Source of the DNA: Bacteroides sp.
GTDB taxonomy: Bacteria > Bacteroidota > Bacteroidia > Bacteroidales > Bacteroidaceae
Length of the DNA: 33,911 bases
Direction: 5' to 3'
Assembly (NCBI GenBank): GCA_017621035.1
Contig: JAGATY010000042.1
Coordinates: 1 to 33,911, forward strand
The notes below the pieces were generated by a model. It searched no databases. It was not told the DNA's origin and saw only the letters and a list, made by a program, of their open reading frames with translations. Position numbers and translations under genes: made by a program. Positions 30,834 through 32,511 of the stretch are shown here, piece after piece (the first letter of the stretch is position 1; each line of letters begins with the position of its first letter).

Positions 30834-31469
30834 ATGGGACAGTTGTTTTCTAAAAAGAATAAGGAAGTATTCTCTACTCCGCTTGGTTTGAACAACCCCG
30901 TAACCGTTCAGGTATTGGGTATCTGTTCTGCACTGGCTGTAACTTCAAAGCTGGAACCGGCCATCGTAATGGGTCTTTCAGTAACAGTGATTACAGCTTT
31001 CTCTAACGTGGTAATCTCTTTGATTCGTAAAACCATTCCCAATCGCATCCGTATCATCGTTCAGCTGGTAGTGGTTGCTGCTTTGGTAACAGTGGTAAGT
31101 GAAATTCTGAAAGCATTTGCTTACGACGTGAGTGTTCAGCTCTCTGTTTACATCGGTTTGATTATTACCAATTGTATCTTGATGGGACGTCTGGAAGCTT
31201 TCGCCATGATGAATGGCCCTTGGGAATCGTTCCTCGATGGTATCGGTAACGGATTGGGCTATGCCAAGATTCTGATTATCGTAGCATTCATCCGCGAGTT
31301 GCTCGGTTCAGGTACATTGTTTGGTTTCAATATCTTGAACTATGATTGCATCAAGGAACTGGGCTATGTAAACAATGGTTTGATGATGATGCCGCCGATG
31401 GCTCTGATTATCGTTGCCTGCATCATCTGGTATCAACGTGCACGTAACAAAGAATTGCAAGAAAAATAG
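30834..31469 (+). CDS. nqrD: Na+-translocating NADH:quinone reductase subunit D
   Basis: NqrD is a six-helix membrane subunit that pairs with NqrE in an inverted fashion. The pair holds an intramembrane Fe-S centre between them. The 211-residue product retains the two expected half-site cysteines, Cys31 in LGICSALAV and Cys114 in ITNCILMG. The start at 30834 ([11 protein letters not shown]) is chosen 4 bp after nqrC; an upstream in-frame TTG at 30801 would overlap nqrC and adds no conserved sequence. The stop codon TAG lies inside the left copy of the AAATAGT direct repeat (31464-31470) flanking the four-helix-bundle cassette, so the insertion falls immediately after this gene. Confidence 0.96.
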
Positions 31470-31902
31470 TGATTTAATTATGAATTATAAATTATAAATT
31501 TTGAATGAAGGAAAATGTCGTTTATAATAAGGCTGTAGACTTCTCTGTCAGGATTGTTGGTTTGTATAAGTTTCTTGTGGAAAACAAATCTGAATATGTT
31601 ATGAGTAAACAACTCTTAAGATGCGGGACTTCCATTGGAGCAAATATCAGCGAATCAATATCGGCAGAGTCAACATCAGACTTTATTCATAAATTGGCAA
31701 TCTCTCAAAAAGAGGCTGAAGAAACATTATATTGGCTATTGCTATTGTTCAGAACAGATTATCTAACAGAAACGCAATATACATCAATGTATAACGATTG
31801 TATTGAAATAAAGAAACTACTTTCTTCTATTGCTCTAACAATCAAGCAACAGCCTAAACAAAATTCATAATTCAAAATTCATAATTCAAAATTAGAAATA
31901 GT
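31464..31902. mobile_element. Four-helix-bundle cassette inserted between nqrD and nqrE, with inverted arms and a 7-bp direct repeat
   Basis: AAATAGT stands at 31464-31470 and 31896-31902, flanking 31471-31895. Inside, arms 31475-31506 and 31863-31894 are reverse complements at 27 of 32 positions. The arms exactly enclose the gene: its ATG (31505-31507) overlaps the left arm and its TAA (31868-31870) lies in the right arm. If the 425-bp insert and one repeat copy are removed, nqrD's TAG is followed by a single T and then the nqrE ATG, a normal tight junction. No transposase is encoded, so mobility would need a helper or an unknown mechanism. The same arms occur at 28800-28897. Confidence 0.7.
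31505..31870 (+). CDS. Four-helix-bundle protein (23S rRNA intervening-sequence / S23 family)
   Basis: The 121-residue product matches the four-helix-bundle family first known from intervening sequences in 23S rRNA genes and distantly related to the Avd accessory proteins of diversity-generating retroelements. The typical core is LLRCGTSIGANISESISAES (about 37-56), followed by DFIHKLAISQKEAEETLYWL. The predicted fold is all-helical, soluble and basic enough to bind nucleic acid; the biochemical role of the family is unsettled. The gene is notably more AT-rich in codon choice than the nqr genes around it, which suggests transfer. It is read in the same direction as the operon, and its start codon is buried in the predicted stem formed by the flanking arms, so its translation may be repressed by that structure. 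Confidence 0.9.
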   Translation: MKENVVYNKAVDFSVRIVGLYKFLVENKSEYVMSKQLLRCGTSIGANISESISAESTSDFIHKLAISQKEAEETLYWLLLLFRTDYLTETQYTSMYNDCIEIKKLLSSIALTIKQQPKQNS

Positions 31903-32511
31903 ATGGAACATTTTATTAGTTTATTCGTCCGCTCTATTTTTGTGGACAACATGATATTCGCATTCTTCTTGGGTATGTGCTCTTACTTGGCTGTATCAAA
32001 GAATGTGAAGACTGCTTTGGGACTGGGTGTTGCCGTAACATTTGTGTTGGTGGTGACGTTGCCGGTCAACTATCTGTTGCAGACACAAGTTCTCGATCCA
32101 TTGGGACTTAGCTTCCTGAGCTTCATCCTCTTTATTGCCGTGATTGCCGGTATTGTTCAGTTGGTAGAGATGGTTGTTGAGCGTTTCAGCCCTTCGCTTT
32201 ACGCTTCGCTTGGTATCTTCCTTCCGCTGATTGCCGTAAACTGTGCTATCATGGGTGCTTCGCTCTTCATGCAGCAGCGTATCACCTTGGGTGAGAGTGA
32301 CCCGAAAGCCATTACCGATGTTTGGGATTCTATCTCTTACGCCCTTGGTTCCGGTATCGGTTGGTTGCTTGCCATCGTAGGTCTGGCTGCCATTCGTGAG
32401 AAGATGGCTTACTCTGATGTTCCCGCTCCGTTGAAGGGATTGGGTATCACATTCATCACTGTAGGCTTGATGGCTATGGCATTTATGTGTTTCTCTGGTT
32501 TGGACATTTAA
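31903..32511 (+). CDS. nqrE: Na+-translocating NADH:quinone reductase subunit E
   Basis: NqrE is the six-helix partner of NqrD in the membrane core of Na+-NQR. The 202-residue product retains the expected Fe-S half-site cysteines, Cys26 in LGMCSYLAV and Cys114 in [10 protein letters not shown]. Its ATG follows directly on the right copy of the AAATAGT direct repeat that borders the four-helix-bundle cassette. Upstream sequences that would normally hold its ribosome-binding region now come from the cassette's right arm. Distance to nqrF is 18 bp. Confidence 0.96.

Follow-up and report, generated by a model that had tools for sequence, protein, structure and literature searches.

Hairpin elements with tandem-heptamer arms around IVP-family genes at bacterial operon junctions, described from an nqrD–nqrE locus of Bacteroides sp.

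The closest described counterparts of the element reported here are the intervening sequences (IVSs) of 23S rRNA. The Coxiella 23S rRNA IVS is 428 nt long with a 28-bp stem, S23p has a pentameric structure, and earlier ideas held IVSs to be transposition remnants or mobile elements (PMC4990558, excerpt). Genes of the IVP family are annotated as "four helix bundle protein" or "23S rRNA-intervening sequence protein". An established function of IVP proteins was not found. A figure legend that deals with CRISPR adaptation modules names a 23S rRNA IVP (PMC10910872, excerpt), and GxxExxY, a second protein family considered below, is mentioned once in the excerpted text of PMC8934634. Tandem heptamers are described as direct repeats of TAACTGA in Beggiatoaceae, Cyanobacteria, and five Bacteroidetes (PMC4679880, excerpt). 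Heptamer arms around IVP genes outside rRNA did not appear in a literature search of titles and abstracts, which excluded subscription papers and preprints.

The nqrD–nqrE element

The window is the whole stretch of DNA analysed, 33,911 nt of a Bacteroides sp. contig (JAGATY010000042.1, assembly GCA_017621035.1). Between the nqrD stop codon and the nqrE start (31903) it carries a 433-nt stretch with an IVP ORF between inverted arms, and the features are as follows:

30834..31469, + strand: nqrD, upstream operon gene (TIGR01939, E 1.3e-90)
31467–31469: nqrD stop codon TAG, 3 nt ahead of the 5' arm
31464..31470, + strand: left AAATAGT, the nqrD end plus one base; proposed target duplication, unsupported
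31473..31506, + strand: 5' arm of AATTATG-type tandem 7-nt units (shuffle test; closing stem in the predicted RNA fold)
31505..31870, + strand: IVP/S23 four-helix-bundle ORF, 121 aa (PF05635, E 5.4e-30; TIGR02436, E 1.5e-30)
31859..31894, + strand: 3' arm of complementary 7-nt units, with the IVP stop codon inside
31895..31902, + strand: probable native nqrE leader with the right AAATAGT (by-eye likeness to the empty relative G052)
31903..32511, + strand: nqrE, downstream operon gene (TIGR01940, E 4.8e-81)

The ORF is a member of the IVP/S23 family PF05635/TIGR02436, scoring 104.2 bits against a curated cut-off of 33.8 for PF05635 and 105.6 against 24 for TIGR02436; it is the single ORF of at least 60 aa inside the element, and its product has no net positive charge (14 K+R, 14 D+E). 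A sequence-only reading of this DNA had placed an S23/IVP-type ORF inside nqrDE, between 32-nt arms pairing at 27 positions and copies of AAATAGT at 31464–31470 and 31896–31902. The profile matches of the ORF and of both flanking genes bear this out, both AAATAGT copies are present, and the arm pair 31475–31506/31863–31894 is complementary at 27 of 32 positions (84%). The arms had also been said to enclose the ORF exactly; this holds only loosely, since the 5' arm runs at its inner end into the IVP start codon and the 3' arm contains the stop codon. The longest ungapped arm pair (31473–31503/31859–31889) covers 31 nt at 87% (27/31), and the arm score of 42 was reached by none of 2000 dinucleotide shuffles of both flanks, the best of which scored 36. 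The arms form the closing stem of the predicted RNA fold of the region (−98.7 kcal/mol, z −4.5 against 100 shuffles). With a cut-off of E 1, Rfam had no match in positions 31300–32100, and no viral-contig homologue of the IVP was found.

Arms and heptamer period across the IVP family

The arms proposed for the window recur around other members of the family. When species genomes were scanned with the window protein, 273 relatives were obtained; the best 80 were used, and 79 were measured after one locus running off its contig (L167) was left out. Arms with a local score of at least 30 were found at 72 of these 79 IVP genes. Mismatched arm pairs reached that score in 63 of 790 cases, and of 372 other ORFs (100–400 aa, any frame) in the same loci, 3 did. 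The median arm is 32 nt and the median element 472 nt long. An earlier, broader IVP set (61 genomes and 84 hits, reduced to 79 by removing 4 near contig ends and 1 duplicate; 200-nt windows) had arms at the same score in 49/79; the best lag was 7 or 14 for 35 of these genes and 8 for another 8. Record titles of the scan relatives include Bacteroidota, Clostridia, and an alphaproteobacterial MAG, many of the records being MAGs in which contamination is possible; B. clarus is among the Bacteroides with an IVP cassette. Three conserved 23S words, with at most 1 mismatch allowed, were absent from the other IVP loci scanned.

The arms are built of 7-nt units. The best lag in the 72 arms was 7 (50 arms), 14 (21), or 9 (1), so that 71/72 fall at 7 or 14. 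Base identity was above expectation by 0.43 for lag 7 and by 0.41 for lag 14; all other lags between 2 and 13 gave negative values. Taken from 71 arms, the 5' unit consensus is NNN followed by A (94%), R (A 60%, G 26%), T (88%), and K (T 71%, G 24%), or ARTKNNN, in which NNN varies by locus; ARTK occupies at least half of the units in 56/72 arms vs 81/1440 shuffled arms. Homologues of the IVP were found in 27 plasmid records, and in the 8 that were fetched the best lag was 7 or 14 in seven (Bernardetia, Treponema, Euhalothece, two Nostoc, Dolichospermum, and Planktothrix), which span Bacteroidota, Cyanobacteria, and a spirochaete. The period is more widely shared than the letters, since just 3 of these 7 plasmid arms have ARTK in half or more of their units. 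The 7-nt arm units, the ARTKNNN consensus, and their spread over phyla are new here and had no place in the sequence-only reading. Among individual loci, L187 and L212 each have both arms with an additional hairpin-like stretch (GATTTCGTCTTCAACGAAATC in L187), and the eighth plasmid fetched, from Monoglobus (L341:2001–2342), carries an unannotated IVP-like stretch with no clear reading frame between hsdS and hsdR.

The two arms of an element stay matched as the unit changes. Of 124 comparisons at shared junctions, 102 had an element's own 5' and 3' arms pairing better than arms taken from different species (medians 45 and 34), and in 22 the foreign arm paired as well or better; the arm limits had been set from each element's own pairing, so that the comparisons lean towards "own", and they include near-identical pairs and some junctions with unlike IVPs. 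The heptamer unit varies between species at these junctions with pairing retained. All five IVP genes of the window genome (G000) have arms, three of them measured and two near contig ends read by eye, and by eye the unit differs in each; the unit therefore belongs to the element and not to the genome. IVP copies within one genome are rarely similar in sequence, the best pair being 14–66% identical in 17 of the 18 genomes with two or more IVPs. The sole near-copy pair among the 18 genomes compared is that of G058 (L106 and L108), where two IVPs 92% alike lie on different contigs and have like arm units (AAGGCTC/AAGGCGC).

The 72 arm-bearing elements represent 48 independent junctions. The IVP gene is in sense orientation in 35 of the 36 junctions with co-directional neighbours (9 further junctions are mixed and 3 without data). 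Other ORFs in the same loci are oriented 81 sense to 5 antisense, and the IVP sense bias can therefore be put down to plain operon membership; as proof of insertion at the RNA level it was rejected, since those ORFs are equally biased. Antisense copies were seen in 2 of the 8 fetched plasmids, both cyanobacterial. One antisense IVP gene, on a Nostoc plasmid (L346:1989–2345), lies between cas2 and cas1 inside period-7 arms. The 5' arm lies a median of 2 nt from the end of the predicted left-hand gene, a figure that uses left-side distances and directly read junctions, the 3'-arm-to-start distances being distorted by flank cutting. Ten neighbours at eight junctions were named from best NCBIfam matches of proteins cut to at most 330 aa. 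Those above cut-off were AraD, glucose-6-phosphate isomerase, 5-dehydro-4-deoxyglucuronate isomerase, a succinate dehydrogenase/fumarate reductase iron-sulfur subunit, SerC, and GlpK, and those below it were phosphoglycerate dehydrogenase, AraA, a succinate dehydrogenase/fumarate reductase flavoprotein subunit, and a RarA-like ATPase; the labels sdh-type, RarA-type, and some others thus rest on cut proteins, several of them sub-cut-off. At three junctions the IVPs of different genomes are unlike, with about 24, 37, and 42% amino acid identity.

A comparable arrangement surrounds genes of the GxxExxY family (TIGR04256). Inverted arms were present at 28 of the 54 such genes that could be located (59 loci, 150-nt windows; L231–L260 and L349–L377) and at 17 of 24 measured in another set (30 loci, 200-nt windows). 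These arms have a CACAGAG-like core by eye and no single period, the best lag being 8–12 in 16/28 and longer in the rest, with a mean excess of at most 0.08. They thus differ from the IVP elements in protein, in arm core, and in lacking the 7-nt period, and GxxExxY genes are possibly a parallel class of cassette. Arm type tracks protein family, which suggests that the protein may recognise the arms.

Gain, loss, and selection at shared junctions

Presence at the nqrD–nqrE junction is patchy. The same-genus search covered 149 genomes, with nqrD/nqrE flanks found in 134, and 45 junctions were read from fetched loci, which were mostly the better matches. Of these, 29 are empty (some with weaker short hairpins), 13 hold gene-less hairpins (an arm score of at least 22, with no period demanded), 2 hold an IVP gene (G000 and G050), and 1 holds a decayed IVP (G018). 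In a tree built on nqrD+nqrE, the window genome is nested in a clade of 10 (support 88/85) whose other nine members are empty; they include its sister G095 (support 100/100 for the pair, 97/94 for the inner clade of four). Empty alleles in related genomes, on which the idea of an insertion depended, therefore exist. Because the nine other clade members are empty, the window element looks like a lineage-specific insertion, and a recent gain in the G000 lineage would be the simplest history on this tree. G050 falls elsewhere in the tree, where the genomes around it have hairpins built on another unit; among the matches listed by the genome scan, the G050 IVP is the best one to the window IVP (82% aa). 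The two IVPs differ by dN 0.11 and dS 2.28, a value near saturation, and the dS values of nqrD (0.96) and nqrE (0.94) between the same genomes are both below it. Two separate entries of related elements into the junction would account for this, or the history may be more tangled.

The AAATAGT pair had been taken for a target duplication. On paper, deletion of the insert does leave a 1-nt nqrD–nqrE junction, as had been read, but the nearest three empty sites consist of a stop codon, 10–11 nt, and ATG (G095, TAAGAAGTAAATT; G052, TAAATTAGAATTGT; G131, TAAATTAGAATAAT). The right copy looks native to the nqrE leader, because the right flank of the window, ATTAGAAATAGT, resembles by eye the sequence ATTAGAATTGT of the empty G052 intergenic region. 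For the 72 IVP genes with arms, the longest word that left and right flanks have in common averages 3.86 nt in own pairs vs 3.77 nt in mismatched pairs, and shared words of at least 7 nt occur in 4/72 own vs 10/858 mismatched pairs, so that a few real target duplications among the 72 are possible. Target-site duplication was rejected on the 10–11-nt empty junctions and on the lack of excess flanking repeats, and the window pair is best read as chance; a 1-nt junction (TGA-T-ATG) in a more distant relative, G019 (L017), speaks against the rejection. At another site, the empty RarA-type junction of G155 (L286) consists of 7 nt including the stop (TAGCGAT), a word that recurs in the arm of the element of the related G143; it is possibly an excision footprint or chance.

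Hairpins without the gene are found at the nqr, RarA-type, and sdh-type junctions and elsewhere in G000 too, and in the loci read, IVP elements, gene-less hairpins, and empty sites coexist at the RarA-type and sdh-type junctions of the genus. One of those in G000 (L410:12401–12494) is a period-7 hairpin with a 30-nt loop right ahead of an ORF, which we take to be purE. Hairpins without an IVP gene are also complementary, and the IVP protein is therefore seemingly dispensable for arm likeness. The decayed copy in G018 consists of arms around a short remnant, whose interior was matched as well to the window IVP by 1 of 1000 shuffles and to the G050 IVP by 0 of 1000. Judged from codon substitutions, same-site IVP pairs show purifying selection on the protein: dN/dS values are 0.08/0.57, 0.11/0.77, and 0.04/0.43, with the weakest at 0.07/0.21; of the further pairs, one is identical and three have saturated dS.

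Explanations and comparison with known systems

The reading preferred here, which we hold to be probable though well short of certain, is that of an operon-borne class of IVS element in which pairing of the stem would loop out the insert from the mRNA. The element would be a hairpin of roughly 420 nt with one IVP gene in the loop and tandem-heptamer arms, ARTKNNN in the 5' arm and its complement in the 3' arm. It would sit in sense directly after a stop codon in a polycistronic transcript, and the host mRNA would carry and express the IVP. Pairing of the arms in the RNA would loop out the IVP gene and bring the upstream stop and the downstream start together at the base of one stem, so that the operon would be disturbed little. 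The arm duplex could also be a substrate for RNase III, as in 23S rRNA IVSs, and with the IVP start codon at the inner end of the 5' arm, the stem might hide the ORF start, as the sequence-only reading had suggested. Template-switch or slippage correction, selection for pairing, or both may keep the arms alike within an element as the unit drifts between elements. The IVP protein would most likely recognise the heptamer stem and aid the spread or maintenance of the element, and loss of the gene could leave a short heptamer hairpin. Any specific route of mobility is held with much lower confidence. The sequences themselves show the arms, their period and consensus, the matched drift of the two arms, sense placement at operon junctions, presence confined to certain lineages, purifying selection on the IVP, one decayed copy, and hairpins lacking the gene; arm pairing in vivo, cutting, coupling, protein–arm binding, and the mobility route are inferences. 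Weighing against the preferred reading are the equal sense bias of other ORFs, the antisense plasmid copies, the complementarity of gene-less hairpins, the 22 comparisons in which a foreign arm did as well or better, the lack of net positive charge on the window IVP, the dissimilarity of copies within a genome, the lower arm count of the broader set, the sparser ARTK of plasmid arms, and the negative search for viral-contig homologues. A wider proposal, which we regard as doubtful, is that IVP–heptamer cassettes are new minimal autonomous mobile elements of operons, in which one small protein would read the ARTK motif every 7 nt along a self-complementary stem and would spread the hairpin between stop–start junctions without a transposase or reverse transcriptase; 23S rRNA IVSs would then be a special case and GxxExxY cassettes a parallel class with arms of their own.

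Other explanations were weighed against looping-out from the mRNA. Inverted ends, presence and absence at one site, and the 7-bp direct repeat of the window copy would also fit a non-autonomous, MITE-like DNA transposon with terminal inverted repeats, mobilised by a transposase in trans and carrying the IVP as cargo. We think this unlikely, as the 72 elements have no clear direct-repeat excess over mismatched flanks, the arm sequence varies between elements even at shared junctions, and the gene is in sense at 35 of 36 independent co-directional junctions. It is very unlikely that the arms represent ordinary heptamer repeats of intergenic DNA, produced by slippage and common in these genomes, with IVP genes merely inside them: gene-less heptamer hairpins do occur at the nqr, RarA-type, and sdh-type junctions and elsewhere in G000, but the background of period-7 arm pairs is low (1 in 400 kb of G085 and 4 in 379 kb of G000, where several contigs had been picked for holding arm hits), arms were found at 72/79 IVP genes vs 3/372 other ORFs, and period 7 is found in other phyla too.

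The hairpin might instead serve the host by attenuating the operon or stabilising its mRNA, and so set the ratio of subunits (nqrD/nqrE or sdhA/sdhB type), with the IVP as its regulator. Repeated occupation of the same metabolic-operon junctions, purifying selection on the IVP, and the existence of hairpins without it are what such a module would lead one to expect; its patchiness, with most relatives read being empty (29/45), and the very unlike IVPs (24–42% aa) at the same junctions make it improbable. The earlier proposal of an IVS-like, IVP-encoding hairpin element in an mRNA operon is supported. Because many IVP relatives carry such repeat hairpins too, the findings suggest that bacterial operons host a kind of small mobile element that is little known. 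The IVP family would gain a shared anatomy, with nearly all its close members measured (72/79 among the best 80 of 273 relatives) placed, mostly at operon junctions, within hairpins made of 7-nt units. This anatomy predicts that the IVP recognises the stem, a role open to direct assay; it also brings the long-standing question of IVS movement in rRNA within reach of testing and could account for some of the intergenic heptamer hairpins in these genomes.

In a comparison with DNA transposons and MITEs, target-site duplication is unsupported for the elements, as judged from the nearest empty sites and the flank words of the 72 elements, and they have no conserved termini, the arms differing by locus with the ARTK part alone in common. 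TAACTGA repeats are likewise intergenic 7-nt tandem units, and once reverse-complemented and read cyclically (AGTTATC), TAACTGA fits ARTKNNN; unlike the window arms, they are direct repeats, mostly close upstream of start codons, and are not paired around a gene (PMC4679880, excerpt). Among proteins, the accessory protein Avd of DGRs (bAvd, PF22296) is reported to be similar to PF05635 in sequence and structure (PMC10053308, excerpt). Of 20 PF22296 loci, 12 could not be framed and 8 were measured, and the PF22296 matches include IVP-like genes, because 4 of these 8 have arms. A profile of 38 relatives matches the solved IVP members 2rld (E 7e-50) and 2gsc (E 7e-27), both deposited as uncharacterized. 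The name of PF05635/TIGR02436 refers to the rRNA setting. The window element lies in an mRNA operon, between nqrD and nqrE and not within a 23S rRNA gene. Its tandem-heptamer arms may be a further difference from 23S rRNA IVSs. In other respects the window element is like the IVSs of the Coxiella and Leptospira type, with a size of about 420 nt here and 428 nt there, an inverted-repeat stem of about 31 bp here and 28 bp there, an S23/IVP ORF inside, and a sporadic distribution (PMC4990558, excerpt), and as in those IVSs, its complementary ends form a predicted stem with the IVP ORF in the loop.
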